Below are positions 2,981 to 37,366 of a DNA stretch of 42,561 nucleotides, piece by piece (position 1 is the stretch's first letter; the number at the start of each line of letters is the position of its first letter). The notes below the pieces were generated by a model. The model saw nothing but the letters and a program-made list of their open reading frames with translations. It searched no databases and was not told the origin of the DNA. The position numbers were made by a program, and so were the translations under genes. The stretch is from Oscillospiraceae bacterium (GTDB lineage: Bacteria; Bacillota; Clostridia; Oscillospirales; Oscillospiraceae): contig JAFSZH010000034.1 of assembly GCA_017455685.1 (NCBI GenBank), positions 1 to 42,561 on the forward strand, read 5' to 3'.

Positions 2981-4081
2981 ATGATCGGTTTCCTGGCCGC
3001 CGTACAGACCACGGCCATCGCCGCCTGGCTGAACTCGGCGTTCGCGGGCTTTGATGAGAGCGTGGCCATTGCCGTCCACAAGCTCTATGAGCTGGCCCCC
3101 GGCTTTTTCACCCCGTTCCTCACGCTGGTCACCTGGATGGGCAAGGGCGGTATTTTTCTGATCCTGCTGTCCTTTGCGCTGATGTATTTCCGGCGTACCC
3201 GGCGGCTGGGCGTCACCATGCTGCTGGCTATTTCCATCGGCGCGCTGATCACCAACCTGACGGTAAAGCCCCTGGTAGCCCGGCCTCGGCCCTATACCTG
3301 GGACGGCAGCGTGTTCCAGCAGTTCTGGATCCAGCTGGGCAAGCACACCGAGAGCGATAAGAGCTTCCCCTCCGGCCACATGACCGCGGCCATGGCCGCC
3401 TCCACGGCGGTATTTCTCCGGGGCAAGCGGCGCATCAGCTGGACGGCTTTCTTCTTCGCCCTCTTCATGGGCATTTCCCGGATCTATCTGAGCGTGCACT
3501 ACACCACCGATGTGCTGGGCGGCGTGATCACCGGCGGCATCGGCGGGATCCTGGGCTACTGGATCTCCGGCTTCATCCCCGAGGGCTTCTTCCGGGGTGA
3601 TGTGAAGGACCTGATGCCCGGCAGCCGGAAGCACGGCCGCCACGAGGCCAAGCCCGTCGAGCGGGAAAAGCCTGAAGAAGAGGAGCGCCGGGAGGTCGTC
3701 ATCGACGGGGAGAACTTCTCCGACCTGGCCGGCTTCTACGCCGAGGCGTCCCGGGTGCTGGGCAGCCCGGAGGACCGGCCCATCCGGACCCTGGACGGCT
3801 TGAACGACATCCTCCGGGGCGGCTTCGGAGAGCACGAAGTCTATGAGCCACTGGAGATCCGATGGAAAAACGCCGACAAGAGCCGGGAGGACCTGGGCTA
3901 TGAGGCCACGGCCCGCTACTTCGAGAGCGTGCTGGAGCGCTGCCACCCCGACAACCGGGAGAAGGTGGGAAAGCGGCTGGCCGCCGCCCGGGAGGGAAAA
4001 GGCCCCACGCTGTTCGATCTGATCCTGTCGGTGATGCGCCGGACCGATTCCGGCCACGATTGCACCGTAGTATTGGAGTAA
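2981..4081 (+). CDS. PAP2 membrane phosphatase fused to a barstar-like domain
   Basis: A 366-residue two-part protein. Residues about 1-205 form a multi-span PAP2 (lipid or undecaprenyl-pyrophosphate type) phosphatase with all three motifs: K96...RPRPY, SFPSGH at 128-133 and SRIYLSVHYTTD at 166-177. These act at the outer face of the membrane on lipid phosphates. A charged linker (about 206-237, rich in Arg, Lys and Glu) leads to residues 238-366, which resemble barstar, the barnase inhibitor: a VIDGENF start, TLDGLNDIL at 270-278 (the two Asp match barstar Asp35 and Asp39, which bind barnase) and a final C-T-V-V-L strand. The tail should be cytoplasmic. The phosphatase assignment is firm; the barstar assignment is by eye but covers start, core helix and last strand. 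It has its own promoter. Confidence 0.85.
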   Translation: MIGFLAAVQTTAIAAWLNSAFAGFDESVAIAVHKLYELAPGFFTPFLTLVTWMGKGGIFLILLSFALMYFRRTRRLGVTMLLAISIGALITNLTVKPLVARPRPYTWDGSVFQQFWIQLGKHTESDKSFPSGHMTAAMAASTAVFLRGKRRISWTAFFFALFMGISRIYLSVHYTTDVLGGVITGGIGGILGYWISGFIPEGFFRGDVKDLMPGSRKHGRHEAKPVEREKPEEEERREVVIDGENFSDLAGFYAEASRVLGSPEDRPIRTLDGLNDILRGGFGEHEVYEPLEIRWKNADKSREDLGYEATARYFESVLERCHPDNREKVGKRLAAAREGKGPTLFDLILSVMRRTDSGHDCTVVLE

Positions 4082-4104
4082 TATAGTTGACATAATATTA
4101 TGCA

Positions 4105-4139
4105 GCAAGAGCGCCGCTGGGGTTCAGCGGCGCTCTTGC
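4105..4139. terminator. Long perfect hairpin between convergent genes
   Basis: A 15-bp perfect stem (GCAAGAGCGCCGCTG) with a GGGTT loop between the convergent PAP2 and murQ genes. Neither side has a good T-run, so it is probably a weak bidirectional terminator or 3'-end stabiliser. Confidence 0.6.
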
Positions 4140-4155
4140 CATATACAGTATGTCT

Positions 4156-4959
4156 TTATTCCCGTTCCGCCAGAAGCCGGTCCACGGCCTGGCTCACGCT
4201 CTCTCCTGAGGCCAGAGCGGCCTCGGCTTCCGCCTCGCTGCAGCCGGTGAGTTCCACGATCATTGAGCAGGCCCGCCGAACCAGCTTGGCGTTGGTGGGG
4301 CGCATGTCCACCATGAGATTGGAGCGCACCTTGCCCAGCTTCACCATGGCGGCGGTGCTGATCATGTTCAAAATCATTTTCTGGGCGTTCCCGGCCTTCA
4401 GACGGGTGGAACCGGTGAGGACCTCGGGGCCGGTGTCCGCCTCTATTGCCACGTCGGCCAGCTGCCCGATCAGGGAGCCGGGGTTGCAGGCCACGGCGGC
4501 GGTCTTTGCTCCCGCGGATCGGGCGTACCGGAGCCCCTCGGCCACATAGGGGGTACTGCCGCTGGCCGCTATGCCGATCACCAGATCTCCCGCCGAGCAG
4601 CCCCGCTCCGCCAGCCGCCGGGCGGCCAGAGCGGGATCGTCCTCATCGGCAGTGAGAAAGCGCATATCCTTCTCCGCCGGCAGGGCGATGACGACGTCCT
4701 CCGCCAGACTGAAGGTGGGAGGCATCTCCGCCGCGTCCAGCAGCGCCAGCCCGCCGCTGGTCCCGGCACCCAGATAAAAGACCCGGCCGCCGGCGCGAAG
4801 GACCTCCGCGTACAGATCCGAGAGGGCGGCAATTTCCGGGAGACATGCCTCCACGGCCCGGACCGCATTTTCGTTTTCCTCGTTCATCAACCGGAGGATC
4901 TCCTTCGTGCCCATGTCGCTCAGGCCCATGGACCGGGGGTTCCTGCTCTCCGTTCCCAT
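4156..4959 (-). CDS. murQ: N-acetylmuramic acid 6-phosphate etherase
   Basis: Cytosolic enzyme that removes the lactyl ether from MurNAc 6-phosphate to give GlcNAc 6-phosphate and D-lactate, recycling cell-wall sugars. The 267-residue product opens with the family's TESRNP...LSDMGTKEILRLMNEEN, then a SIS sugar-phosphate isomerase fold: GAGTSGGLALLDAAE (Glu of the active site), IAASGSTPYV, and the strongly conserved block TGSTRLKAGNAQKMILNM followed by KVRSNLMVDM. It is about 30 residues shorter than E. coli MurQ, mostly between the first motif and the second Glu/Asp-rich loop. The start at 4959 uses GGAGG overlapping the end of the upstream lyase gene, from which it is 4 bases away. No MurNAc PTS gene lies beside it. 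Confidence 0.92.
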   Translation of the reverse strand: MGTESRNPRSMGLSDMGTKEILRLMNEENENAVRAVEACLPEIAALSDLYAEVLRAGGRVFYLGAGTSGGLALLDAAEMPPTFSLAEDVVIALPAEKDMRFLTADEDDPALAARRLAERGCSAGDLVIGIAASGSTPYVAEGLRYARSAGAKTAAVACNPGSLIGQLADVAIEADTGPEVLTGSTRLKAGNAQKMILNMISTAAMVKLGKVRSNLMVDMRPTNAKLVRRACSMIVELTGCSEAEAEAALASGESVSQAVDRLLAERE

Positions 4960-27243: not shown

Positions 27244-28689
27244 ATGCAGTTTAACAGCTTTGCGTTCATATTCTTTTTCCCCATAAGTATTTTGCTGTAT
27301 TTTGCAGCCAATCGGCTCAGACCGGAGCTGGGGAAGCTGGTCATCATCGGCAGCGGGATCGCCTTCTGCGCGCTGGGAAAAACGAATATGCTTCTCTTTC
27401 TGGGGGGCAGCATCCTCATCAACTACTGCGCCGTCCTGCTCATCAGGAAGTATTCCACACGGAACAAGCTCCTTCTGGCGCTGCCCATCCTGATAAATCT
27501 GGGGCTTTTGTTCTCCCTCAAGTATCTGGATTTTGCAATCAGGTGCTTCAACCTGCTGACGGGGACGCATATTCGCGTGAGAGATATTCTGCTCCCCCTG
27601 GGGATCTCCTTTTATACCTTTCAGCAGATCGCGTACATCGTTGCCACGATCAGCGGGGAACTGAAAAACAACAGCCTCATCGATTATCTGACGTTTATCC
27701 TGTACTTTCCCAAGCTGGTGATGGGCCCCCTTGCCGATCCCGTGGATTTTATAGCGCAGATCAATGAGACGAGCCGGAAAAAAGCAAACTATGACAACAT
27801 CGCGTCCGGCCTTATGGTCTTCAGCTTCGGGCTTTTGAAAAAGACGCTGCTTGCAGATACCTTCGCCGCGGCCGTCACCTGGGTCTACACGAATCTGGGG
27901 ATCGCGACCGCCGTGGACTGTCTGCTGGTGATGCTGTTCTACACGTTTGAGATCTACTTTGATTTCGGCGGCTACAGCGATATGGCGATCGGCATATCGA
28001 CCATGATGAACATCGATCTGCCCATGAACTTCCGTTCGCCGTATCTTGCCGTTTCGATCCGGGACTTCTGGAAGAGATGGCACTTGACGCTGACGAGATT
28101 TCTTACAAGATACGTGTTTGTCCCGCTGGGAGGGTCAAGAAAGGGCCTGCTCCGCACCTGCGTGAATACGCTGATCGTGTTCGTGTTCTGCGGGATGTGG
28201 CACGGCTCAAAATGGTCCTTCGTTCTCTGGGGGATCCTGCATGGACTGCTCAGCTGTTTCGACAGGGTGTTCGGCAAGCTGGAGGAGAAGATCCCGAAGC
28301 CCATCCGATGGCTTTTTACCTTCGCGGTACTCAACGTCCTTTGGCTGCTGTTCAGTACGCAGTCGATCCAGGTGTGGCGCGGCATTCTGATGAGGATCAT
28401 GGCCATGCAGACGACGGCCGTCAGCGGAGGGCTGATGGACGTTTTCAACGTGGCAGAGATCACTGTCCTCTATCGCTTGTTGGGCCTGGACGGGTTGACG
28501 CAAAGCGTGCCCTGGTTCAATATGGTCCTCTTTTTTGTGGCGGCGGCGGTGGTATGCGTGCTGCCGGAAAACTGCCTCAGGGTGAGGAAAAGGGCGGGGA
28601 TCGCGGCACTGGCGCTTTCTTCGCTGGCCTTCATCTGGGGCGTACTGTGCATAGGCGCAGAATCGGTGTTCATTTATTCTGCTTTTTGA
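27244..28689 (+). CDS. MBOAT family O-acyltransferase (AlgI/DltB-like)
   Basis: A 481-residue multi-span membrane O-acyltransferase that would pass acyl groups (usually acetyl) across the membrane to a surface polysaccharide. About eleven hydrophobic segments are visible. Family marks are PLGISFYTFQQIAYIV near 118-133, FILYFPKLVMGP near 152, FDFGGYSDMAIGISTMMNIDLPMNFRSPY near 239-267, FWKRWHLTLTRFLTRYVFVPLGGSR near 274-298 and the catalytic GMWHGSKWSFVLWGILHGL with His320 and His333. The ribosome binding site is weak (GGGGGCGG). It sits 13 bases before an AlgJ/DltD-like partner. It points against the surrounding nusA-infB-rbfA operon and interrupts it. Confidence 0.9.
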   Translation: MQFNSFAFIFFFPISILLYFAANRLRPELGKLVIIGSGIAFCALGKTNMLLFLGGSILINYCAVLLIRKYSTRNKLLLALPILINLGLLFSLKYLDFAIRCFNLLTGTHIRVRDILLPLGISFYTFQQIAYIVATISGELKNNSLIDYLTFILYFPKLVMGPLADPVDFIAQINETSRKKANYDNIASGLMVFSFGLLKKTLLADTFAAAVTWVYTNLGIATAVDCLLVMLFYTFEIYFDFGGYSDMAIGISTMMNIDLPMNFRSPYLAVSIRDFWKRWHLTLTRFLTRYVFVPLGGSRKGLLRTCVNTLIVFVFCGMWHGSKWSFVLWGILHGLLSCFDRVFGKLEEKIPKPIRWLFTFAVLNVLWLLFSTQSIQVWRGILMRIMAMQTTAVSGGLMDVFNVAEITVLYRLLGLDGLTQSVPWFNMVLFFVAAAVVCVLPENCLRVRKRAGIAALALSSLAFIWGVLCIGAESVFIYSAF

Positions 28690-28701
28690 GTGTGAGAGAA
28701 A

Positions 28702-30285
28702 ATGAAAGCTAAAGTGTGGCTTATCAGCTGGCTTGTCATCGTGATATCCGTACTGGGCGCGGTGGGATATGTGGTCTATAAGGTCGATCCCTTTATCCAT
28801 TTTCACGCGCCGGATCTGGACGAGTACTATTATACCCTGGACAATCAACGCAGCCAGAATGACGGCTTGAGCGAATTCCTGGAGTTTGACGCGCTGATCA
28901 CGGGCACCTCCATGACGGACAATTTCAAGACATCCGAAATGGACGCGCTTTTCGGATGCCATTCGGCGAAGCTTACCTTCGACGGGGGCACCTTTGTTGA
29001 AATCAACGATTTTGTAGAGAGGGTATTGAAAAGGAAACCCGATCTGTCGATCGTCCTCAGGGGATTGGATTTAGGCTGTTTTCTGGACAAGTATGACTGG
29101 ATAAACGTATCCGAAAAGCAGCGAGTGGGATACTTGACGGATGACAACGCATGGAATGACGTTGAATACCTGCTCAACGAGGATGCGTTTTTCGGCAGAG
29201 CGCTGACGATGATGCTCGATAAAGGCGAGGAGGGCTTTGAACCGGGTATCACGTCCTTCGACGAATACTCCCGATGGCAGGAAGCTTATGGATTTGGTTA
29301 TAATTCTGTGTATCCGGATGGAATTACTTTCCGTGCGACGGCAGAAGAAGGCCTTTCGGAAGAGCAAAGGGCAGTGATCGAGGAAAACATCACCCGGAAC
29401 GTCACAAGCATTGCGGATCGGTATCCGGAGGTAGAGTTTTATTACTTCTATACGCCGTACAGCCTCGGATGGTGGGGCTATTTGGTGAACTGCGGACTTC
29501 TCACACAATGGCTTGAGGCGGAAAAACAGATCACGGAGCTCATCCTTCCCCATGAGAATATCCATTTGTTTTCTTTCAATAACCGGAGGGATATCACAGC
29601 GGATCTGAATAACTATACAGATCCGAACCATTATGCCGCGTGGGTGAACAGCCTGATCCTCAAGTGGATACACGACGGGTCGTACCAGTTGACGGCGGAC
29701 AATTATGAGGAATACCTGGAAGAAGAACGGATGTTCCTTGCAGCTGTGAACTACTCCCTCCTTAAAGACCAGATCGATTATGAAAACGACCTGTTCGCGG
29801 CGGCTCTGGTCAATCGGGAACTGACCGGGGCGGAGCCTCTGGACGTTTTGAATGACGACAGGCTCGGTGTGGAGCTGGTCGGGGCGTCGTTTCTTGTCCA
29901 GGACGGCAGAAACACGGGCGTCTCCTGTCAGGGCTGGCCGGTCGGGGACGGGTTCCCGGGAGAAGGGCCGGAGAGGGTCCTGGATGATGGATTCGTCGGC
30001 GTGAAGTTTACGGTCAGCCTGGACGAGGGCTACCGGTATCTTTGTTTTGACGGCCAGAAGGATCGGGAGGAAGGGATGCCCGTGGTTCTCGCAGTGGATG
30101 AAGAGGGGAATGCTGCATCGTTTCTCGAGGCCAATGATATCTATATGGATTGTGAAAAACACCAGTATGTGATCGATCTCGCGTCAGCAGGCGGAACGGT
30201 CACGGTATTCCTGGGCGGTACAGAGGGGACCGCCGGGGGAGGCCCCGATACAGAATACCTTTTCAGCAATGTTGTCCTGTATTGA
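28702..30285 (+). CDS. SGNH-type acyltransferase partner (AlgJ/DltD-like)
   Basis: A 527-residue membrane-anchored protein, likely the extracellular partner that accepts the acyl group from MBOAT. One N-terminal hydrophobic segment (about 6-28) is followed by an SGNH-hydrolase-like domain: nucleophile Ser70 in ITGTSMTDNF, the IVLRGLDLGCFLD strand near 116, YFYTPYS near 250 and the catalytic Asp307-His310 in TDPNHYA. Residues about 385-527 form an extra beta-rich domain resembling a carbohydrate-binding module, which is unusual for AlgJ and DltD and may recognise the acceptor. Its codons are more AT-rich than those of neighbours. It is followed by a bidirectional hairpin before infB. Confidence 0.82.
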   Translation: MKAKVWLISWLVIVISVLGAVGYVVYKVDPFIHFHAPDLDEYYYTLDNQRSQNDGLSEFLEFDALITGTSMTDNFKTSEMDALFGCHSAKLTFDGGTFVEINDFVERVLKRKPDLSIVLRGLDLGCFLDKYDWINVSEKQRVGYLTDDNAWNDVEYLLNEDAFFGRALTMMLDKGEEGFEPGITSFDEYSRWQEAYGFGYNSVYPDGITFRATAEEGLSEEQRAVIEENITRNVTSIADRYPEVEFYYFYTPYSLGWWGYLVNCGLLTQWLEAEKQITELILPHENIHLFSFNNRRDITADLNNYTDPNHYAAWVNSLILKWIHDGSYQLTADNYEEYLEEERMFLAAVNYSLLKDQIDYENDLFAAALVNRELTGAEPLDVLNDDRLGVELVGASFLVQDGRNTGVSCQGWPVGDGFPGEGPERVLDDGFVGVKFTVSLDEGYRYLCFDGQKDREEGMPVVLAVDEEGNAASFLEANDIYMDCEKHQYVIDLASAGGTVTVFLGGTEGTAGGGPDTEYLFSNVVLY

Positions 30286-36514: not shown

Positions 36515-37366
36515 TTATTCGGTAAAGTGGATGTGGTTGTTGATATGCTCCTGACAGAAGCAGTGGTAGCCCGCGCAGCGGGAGCAGTAGCGGAACTCCA
36601 GCTCCGGGTGCTCCGTGTCGGTGCGGCCGCAGACGCCGCATTTGAAGCGGTAGGGAGCGGTGCGCTGCTCGCTGCGGATCTTGTCCGCGGCCCGGCGGAA
36701 GTTGACCACCTTCTGCCGCTGCCGGTAGGGCCCCGGCCCCAGCCGGGCGAAGAGGATGTCCCCGCAGAACAGCAGGAAGTTCAGCGTCGCCACGACGGGC
36801 AGCAGATTGTCCGGGAAGGAGATGGAGAACACGCAGTACAGGAAGTACGCCGCGTCGATCAGCGCCAGCCACTTCATCTTCATGGGGATGAAGAACATGA
36901 ACAGCACCTGCAGATCCGGGTAGTTGGCGGCGAAGGAGAAGAACATGGACAGGTAGATGAACTCCGCCACGTAGTAGGGGTTCAGGCTCTTCCCGGAGAT
37001 GAAGTACACCGCAAAGGCGAAGATCACCGTAAAGAGCATGCCGCAGTAAAAGTAAAGATTGAACTTTACCGAGCCCCATTCCCGCTCCAGCGTGCTGCCG
37101 ATGAAGTAGTAGAAGTACAAAAACAGCAGCGTCAGTATCCCGCCGGAGGCGGGCACGAAGACGAAGGTCACCAGCCGCCAGATCTGTCCCTTGAGCACCA
37201 TGCCGGGCAGCAGCGCCAGATAATAGACCACCGTGCCGGTGCGGTCCATCAATGTCAGAAGCCAGATCGCCGCGTTGCCGATGACCAGATATTTCATCAG
37301 ATGAAAGATCCCGAACCGCGGGTGGCGGGCGCAGAAGCGGTCCACCCAGCGAATAAAGGACTTCAT
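36515..37366 (-). CDS. Rhomboid-like membrane protein with C-terminal zinc ribbon
   Basis: A 283-residue membrane protein. About six spans lie in residues 25-205, with rhomboid-fold features: GQIWRLVTFVFVP near 60-72, the GSTLEREWGSVKFNLYFYCGML loop and span near 91-112, and LFMFFIPMKMKWLALID near 155-171. The catalytic Ser of GxSG and the His of the sixth span are not seen; the expected site reads NPYYVAEFIYLSMFF. It is therefore probably a pseudoprotease, as derlins are in eukaryotes. The last 45 residues form a zinc-binding module with CGVCG, YCSRCAGYHCFC and a HINNHIH histidine group. Function is unknown. It probably shares a transcript with the CapA-type gene. Confidence 0.78.
   Translation of the reverse strand: MKSFIRWVDRFCARHPRFGIFHLMKYLVIGNAAIWLLTLMDRTGTVVYYLALLPGMVLKGQIWRLVTFVFVPASGGILTLLFLYFYYFIGSTLEREWGSVKFNLYFYCGMLFTVIFAFAVYFISGKSLNPYYVAEFIYLSMFFSFAANYPDLQVLFMFFIPMKMKWLALIDAAYFLYCVFSISFPDNLLPVVATLNFLLFCGDILFARLGPGPYRQRQKVVNFRRAADKIRSEQRTAPYRFKCGVCGRTDTEHPELEFRYCSRCAGYHCFCQEHINNHIHFTE

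Follow-up and report, generated by a model that had tools for sequence, protein, structure and literature searches.

Barstar (PF01337) is the inhibitor of the ribonuclease (RNase) barnase, and the passages of PMC3482391 that treat these families describe barnase–barstar gene pairs and Imm-Barstar in polymorphic toxin–immunity gene order, with DxxxD given for Imm-Barstar. In the 42,561-nucleotide stretch of Oscillospiraceae DNA analysed here (contig JAFSZH010000034.1 of assembly GCA_017455685.1, hereafter the window), a domain of this kind forms the C-terminal tail of a membrane phosphatase of the PAP2 type. The fusion is genuine, rare, and found in a small clade of gut bacteria, and its tail is a barstar by fold. 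We tentatively propose, at somewhat less than an even chance, that the tail is a membrane-anchored cytoplasmic RNase inhibitor that replaced the barstar usually linked to barnase.

An earlier note on this gene, made from the sequence, had described a PAP2 phosphatase joined to a cytoplasmic barstar-like domain, and both parts of that description stood. The PAP2 part matches PF01569 with 74.7 bits (cut-off 27.2) and contains all three phosphatase motifs, KxxxxxxRP, PSGH, and SRxxxxxHxxxD; against the NCBIfam equivalogs SepP and PRK11837 it reaches 48.5 of 250 and 35.9 of 229 bits, below the curated cut-offs. It is probably a lipid-phosphate phosphatase, with undecaprenyl pyrophosphate or a similar outer-face lipid as its likely substrate. 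From the positions of the catalytic motifs and from hydropathy, we infer an active site at the outer face and a C-terminus in the cytoplasm, in line with the location given in the note. The tail itself matches PF01337 with 27.9 bits (curated cut-off 23.4), and its relative in genome G084 with 25.9. The barstar fold was found in a structure model covering the tail only, a comparison that the note had suggested, and among PDB chains the tail gave a match by profile but none by single-sequence search. D272 and D276, which we take to correspond to D35 and D39 of barstar, are invariant in all five fusions, as expected from the claim that both barnase-contact aspartates are kept. Invariant as well are W295, an LRGG segment, a KSR segment, and fold residues; LRG, the Trp, and several more of these residues are common to standalone relatives and are therefore not fusion-specific.

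Among nine genomes of the genus, the full fusion is present in five (the window's genome G000, of 1.89 Mb and 72% complete, with G084, G152, G153, and G155), and the same PAP2 gene without the tail in four (G150, G151, G154, and G156). The neighbouring genes—an aldolase, DUF2461, a LexA-like regulator, and a threonine-aldolase-like gene—are partly common to tailed and tail-less loci, which argues that these are one orthologous gene. In a tree of the PAP2 part, the five fusions group together (96/94), and their sister group is formed by G150, G151, and G154 (96/92), with 82/81 at the joining fork; on this tree, the gene appears to have acquired its tail once. The frame is open in all five species, with the other tails 54–61% identical to the window's. 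The ratio of nonsynonymous to synonymous differences (pN/pS), at synonymous sites that are partly saturated, is 0.43–0.69 for the tail, below 1 in every one of the 10 pairs, and 0.24–0.49 for the PAP2 part; by this measure, the tail is under constraint, though less than the PAP2 part.

Full-length matches to the fusion were found in 2 of 150 family genomes, both of the same genus. Of 394 genomes from the order, a profile of the tail matched in 5, among which the window's was the only one with a PAP2 fusion. A scan of genome contigs gave six loci, four of them PAP2–barstar fusions. Four fusions lie in metagenome genomes assigned to Oscillospiraceae or Ruminococcaceae; sheep rumen is the source of two of these genomes and goat ileum of one. 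Viral contigs gave no full-length fusion and, with the tail profile, two standalone relatives. Phages searched with the tail gave no match, anti-phage models matched none of the four proteins tested, and no PAP2–barstar fusion was found in the titles and abstract openings from literature searches.

The tail is the sole barstar match in the window's genome, which encodes a barnase on another contig (C20, E 1.1e-20) with a lipobox-like N-terminus and the expected catalytic E, R, and H; the statement that no barnase-like toxin is present thus holds for the window but not for the genome. The survey of fusion genomes that had been called for found a barnase with an export-type N-terminus in three of the five, on a separate contig from the fusion in G000 and G084 and about 10 kb from it in G153, and none in G152 (79% complete) and G155 (78%). 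Unlike the canonical barnase-paired barstar, the tail gene does not lie directly downstream of barnase. Of the six genomes of the genus with a barnase, the tail-less G150, G151, and G154 have a standalone barstar directly after it, whereas G000, G084, and G153 have none there, and the five fusion genomes yielded no barstar besides the tail; in tail-less G156 (89% complete), neither barnase nor barstar was found. Barnase-linked barstar and PAP2 fusion are complementary across the nine genomes, a distribution that fits replacement of the former by the latter. In such a scheme, a PAP2-type phosphatase would have gained, once, a C-terminal barstar-fold domain suspended from a charged linker on the cytoplasmic side of the membrane. 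There it could capture the cell's own exported barnase, or a prematurely folded precursor, near the membrane being crossed, and so take over from the barstar gene normally behind barnase. Should the tail inhibit barnase, an envelope enzyme at the membrane, rather than a free toxin-linked protein, would carry the immunity to an exported RNase.

In the family, barnase was found in 101 of 300 genomes and a barstar match likewise in 101; for 86 of the 104 barnases, a same-strand barstar lies no more than 400 bases downstream. Of the 18 without one, contig ends cut off four (G081, G063, G213, and G130). The idea that fused barstars account for all unlinked barnases proved only partly true: the 14 uncut cases comprise two with the PAP2 fusion (G000 and G084), one with a fusion to a low-molecular-weight (LMW) phosphatase (G004), two with an unlinked standalone barstar (G043 and G077), and nine for which no barstar was found in their often incomplete genomes. 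A more sensitive profile added no barstar up to 1.5 kb behind the unlinked barnases. Lipoprotein barnase was rejected as a mark of fusion genomes; a simple lipobox-like pattern, which misses some variants, matched 50 of 63 family barnases with a linked barstar and 13 of 18 without one, and within the genus the three barnases of fusion genomes and none of the other three.

Several observations weigh against the tail as successor of the linked barstar. Gain of the tail and absence of the linked barstar amount to a single event on one branch, a comparison of three barnases with three. The nine barnases without a barstar imply that an unpaired barnase may be tolerated, and the tail of G084 was missed by the family search and found otherwise, so that these searches can overlook a barstar. 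A neighbour unseen beside linked pairs is common to the G000 and G153 barnases, and vertical descent of the genus barnases was not retained, a tree of 81 barnases lacking resolution there. In 9 of 10 pairs, pN/pS is higher for the tail than for the PAP2 part, and tail pN is higher in all 10. Furthermore, the tail belongs to a longer barstar subtype of about 130 residues, and the barnase profile gave no match in 14 stretches around its relatives. The contact surface also differs. Among 63 linked barstars (from 62 of the 86 linked family pairs, plus G150), a G-x-N loop precedes DxxxD in 61, with Y immediately before G in 53 of those; the loop is found in none of the five fusions, three of which keep the N alone. 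The place of barstar W38 is taken by N or S in the fusions and by Y, H, F, or W in 55 of 60 linked barstars. The export-type barnases and the lack of a second barstar match give some weight to the membrane-tethered immunity suggested in the earlier note; the changed loop weighs against barnase inhibition. The other suggestion of that note, a sensor controlling the phosphatase, is conceivable but gained no direct support.

A barstar in G420 (L095, 1498–2316), from another family of the same order, likewise lacks the loop and lies near a barnase, on the same strand and in the same short stretch. It scores 42.2 bits in a 328-residue frame that reaches the end of the contig and holds no other Pfam domain above cut-off. 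NLDALND is common to this barstar and one fusion, LDALND to it and other fusions. Because this loop-less barstar is barnase-linked, our estimate for inhibition rose very slightly, remaining short of even.

The altered surface may leave room for a new specificity or another partner. In one alternative, which we consider unlikely, the barstar fold is re-used to bind another cytoplasmic protein or the phosphatase itself, regulating or placing the PAP2 enzyme; a tail that does not bind barnase would be a natural case of this fold put to other use. A changed contact loop combined with invariant fold residues, W295, LRGG, and KSR would suit such a role, yet DxxxD is invariant too, part of the conserved set recurs in standalone relatives, and there is no known partner.

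The standalone relatives bear on another alternative, also improbable in our view: that the tail provides orphan immunity, guarding at the point of membrane entry against foreign barnase-like RNase toxins from neighbouring cells rather than against the cell's own barnase. The closest relatives outside the genus are standalone "barstar family proteins" of about 130 residues, 38–53% identical among the matches listed, with members in Fulvivirgaceae (53%), Lachnospiraceae (47%), and Streptomyces and Rhizobium plasmids. The extra hairpin stretch is present in five of six aligned standalone rows, and the G-x-N loop is kept in several (L099, L092, and L094 among them) and absent from L100. The Rhizobium member lies inside an immunity-gene array (Imm42, Imm63), downstream of a hemagglutinin-repeat gene, and in Lachnospiraceae RGIG6281 (L100, about 3406–4402) a barstar of the subtype stands directly behind what we take to be a MazE/MazF-like pair. 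These settings, the two fusion genomes in which barnase was not found, and a contact surface unlike that of most barnase-linked barstars are consistent with a foreign target; however, the complementary distribution would then be a coincidence, and a toxin search limited to PF00545 identified no delivered toxin. As a separate observation, an RtcB RNA-ligase gene lies near a standalone barstar of the subtype in 2 of 14 stretches examined, L102 (Rhizobium plasmid CP050516.1) and L094 (G620), and the L102 barstar is additionally downstream of an "RNA-binding protein" gene.

Turning from foreign toxins back to the proposed membrane-anchored inhibitor, fusion of barstar was observed to recur in the family. 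In 20 of 107 barstar matches from the 300 genomes, the frame also holds an unrelated protein, of nine kinds: DUF169 (5), M32 carboxypeptidase (4), a GtrA membrane domain (2), GNAT (2), pyridoxal phosphate-dependent enzymes (2, 29% identical to each other), PAP2 (2), and a beta-helix protein, a MarR regulator, and the LMW phosphatase (1 each). Loci with non-PAP2 partners include L197, L201, L181, L190, L188, L200, L194, L195, and L126 (in order, genomes G033, G271, G268, G297, G123, G092, G117, G211, and G004). Pfam scans covered nine of the fusion proteins as well as those of G084, G254, and G221 and the window's, the remainder being tied by blastp over the partner part; G218 (a 367-residue frame) and G215:C40 were read as out of frame or chance and excluded from the 20. 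Barstar is N-terminal in the 16 fusions that follow a barnase; the other four (both PAP2 fusions, LMW phosphatase, and MarR) have it at the C-terminus. The G-x-N loop is kept in the barnase-adjacent fusions that were read and in the LMW phosphatase fusion, and is absent from the MarR fusion. In the small antitoxin family PF02604, taken as a control over 200 genomes, 1 of 150 frames among the matches listed had at least 230 residues (Fisher p ~1e-7, with kinship ignored, several fusions common to sister genomes, and counts defined differently, as verified fusions for barstar and as frame length for PF02604). Across the phylum, barstar matches occurred in 10 of 299 genomes; of the 12 matches outside the window's own genome, 1 lay in a frame of at least 230 residues; in G719, a 252-residue frame has a C-terminal barstar after residues without a Pfam match.

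It is conceivable, though on balance doubtful, that the family repeatedly fuses a barnase inhibitor to unrelated, often housekeeping-type proteins such that loss of immunity would cost a useful gene, with the PAP2 and GtrA cases stationing immunity at the membrane through which the RNase has to pass and the PAP2 case being one in which the inhibitor has gone from the toxin operon. The wider pattern raises the question of whether immunity proteins become fixed in genomes through fusion to needed genes. That the tail is instead a harmless passenger, a barstar gene behind PAP2 joined by chance as in many family fusions, accords with the variety of partners and the faster evolution of the tail but is decidedly unlikely given the frame open in all five species, the 54–61% identity, pN/pS below 1 in every pair, and the invariant fold-defining residues.

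Features of the PAP2–barstar fusion gene in the window
Feature	Position	Strand	Residues and remarks
Whole fusion open reading frame (ORF): PAP2 phosphatase, linker, barstar-fold tail	2981..4081	+	366 residues plus stop
PAP2 domain	3215..3565	+	79-195; PF01569 match
PAP2 motif 1, KPLVARPRP	3266..3292	+	96-104
PAP2 motif 2, PSGH	3368..3379	+	130-133
PAP2 motif 3, SRIYLSVHYTTD	3476..3511	+	166-177
Last hydrophobic segment	3512..3568	+	178-196; predicted tail exit on cytoplasmic side
Charged linker	3569..3688	+	197-236; length differs among species
Barstar-fold tail	3689..4078	+	237-366; ~130-residue subtype
DxxxD, D272-G-L-N-D276	3794..3808	+	
Extra helical hairpin within barstar core	3899..3991	+	model residues 71-101; missing in relative G152

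Elsewhere in the window, two genes at 27244–30285, presumably an MBOAT-like acyltransferase and its partner, have a lower G+C content than the rest and may have been gained horizontally. A tRNA-Gln called by ARAGORN at 36611–36698, inside an ORF on the opposite strand (36515–37366), is probably a false call because it has no Rfam match at the gathering score.

Compared with barstar itself, the fused domain sits behind a membrane enzyme rather than beside barnase, has an extra helical hairpin, and has lost the G-x-N loop and the aromatic residue at position 38. It differs from the standalone barstar family proteins of about 130 residues, which are separate proteins, in being fused. The PAP2 domain with its three motifs resembles that of the PAP2-type undecaprenyl-diphosphatases SepP and PRK11837, but the fusion scores far under their equivalog cut-offs and bears a cytoplasmic barstar tail. 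As in the linked barnase–barstar pairs and Imm-Barstar, so far as the relevant passages of PMC3482391 describe them, a barnase and a candidate inhibitor of barstar fold occur in one genome, but the barstar of the present gene is fused to another protein and not linked to the barnase. Like the other fusions of the family, such as those with GtrA, LMW phosphatase, and M32 carboxypeptidase, it joins a barstar to an unrelated protein; the 16 barnase-adjacent fusions carry the barstar at the N-terminus, whereas the PAP2 fusion carries it at the C-terminus.
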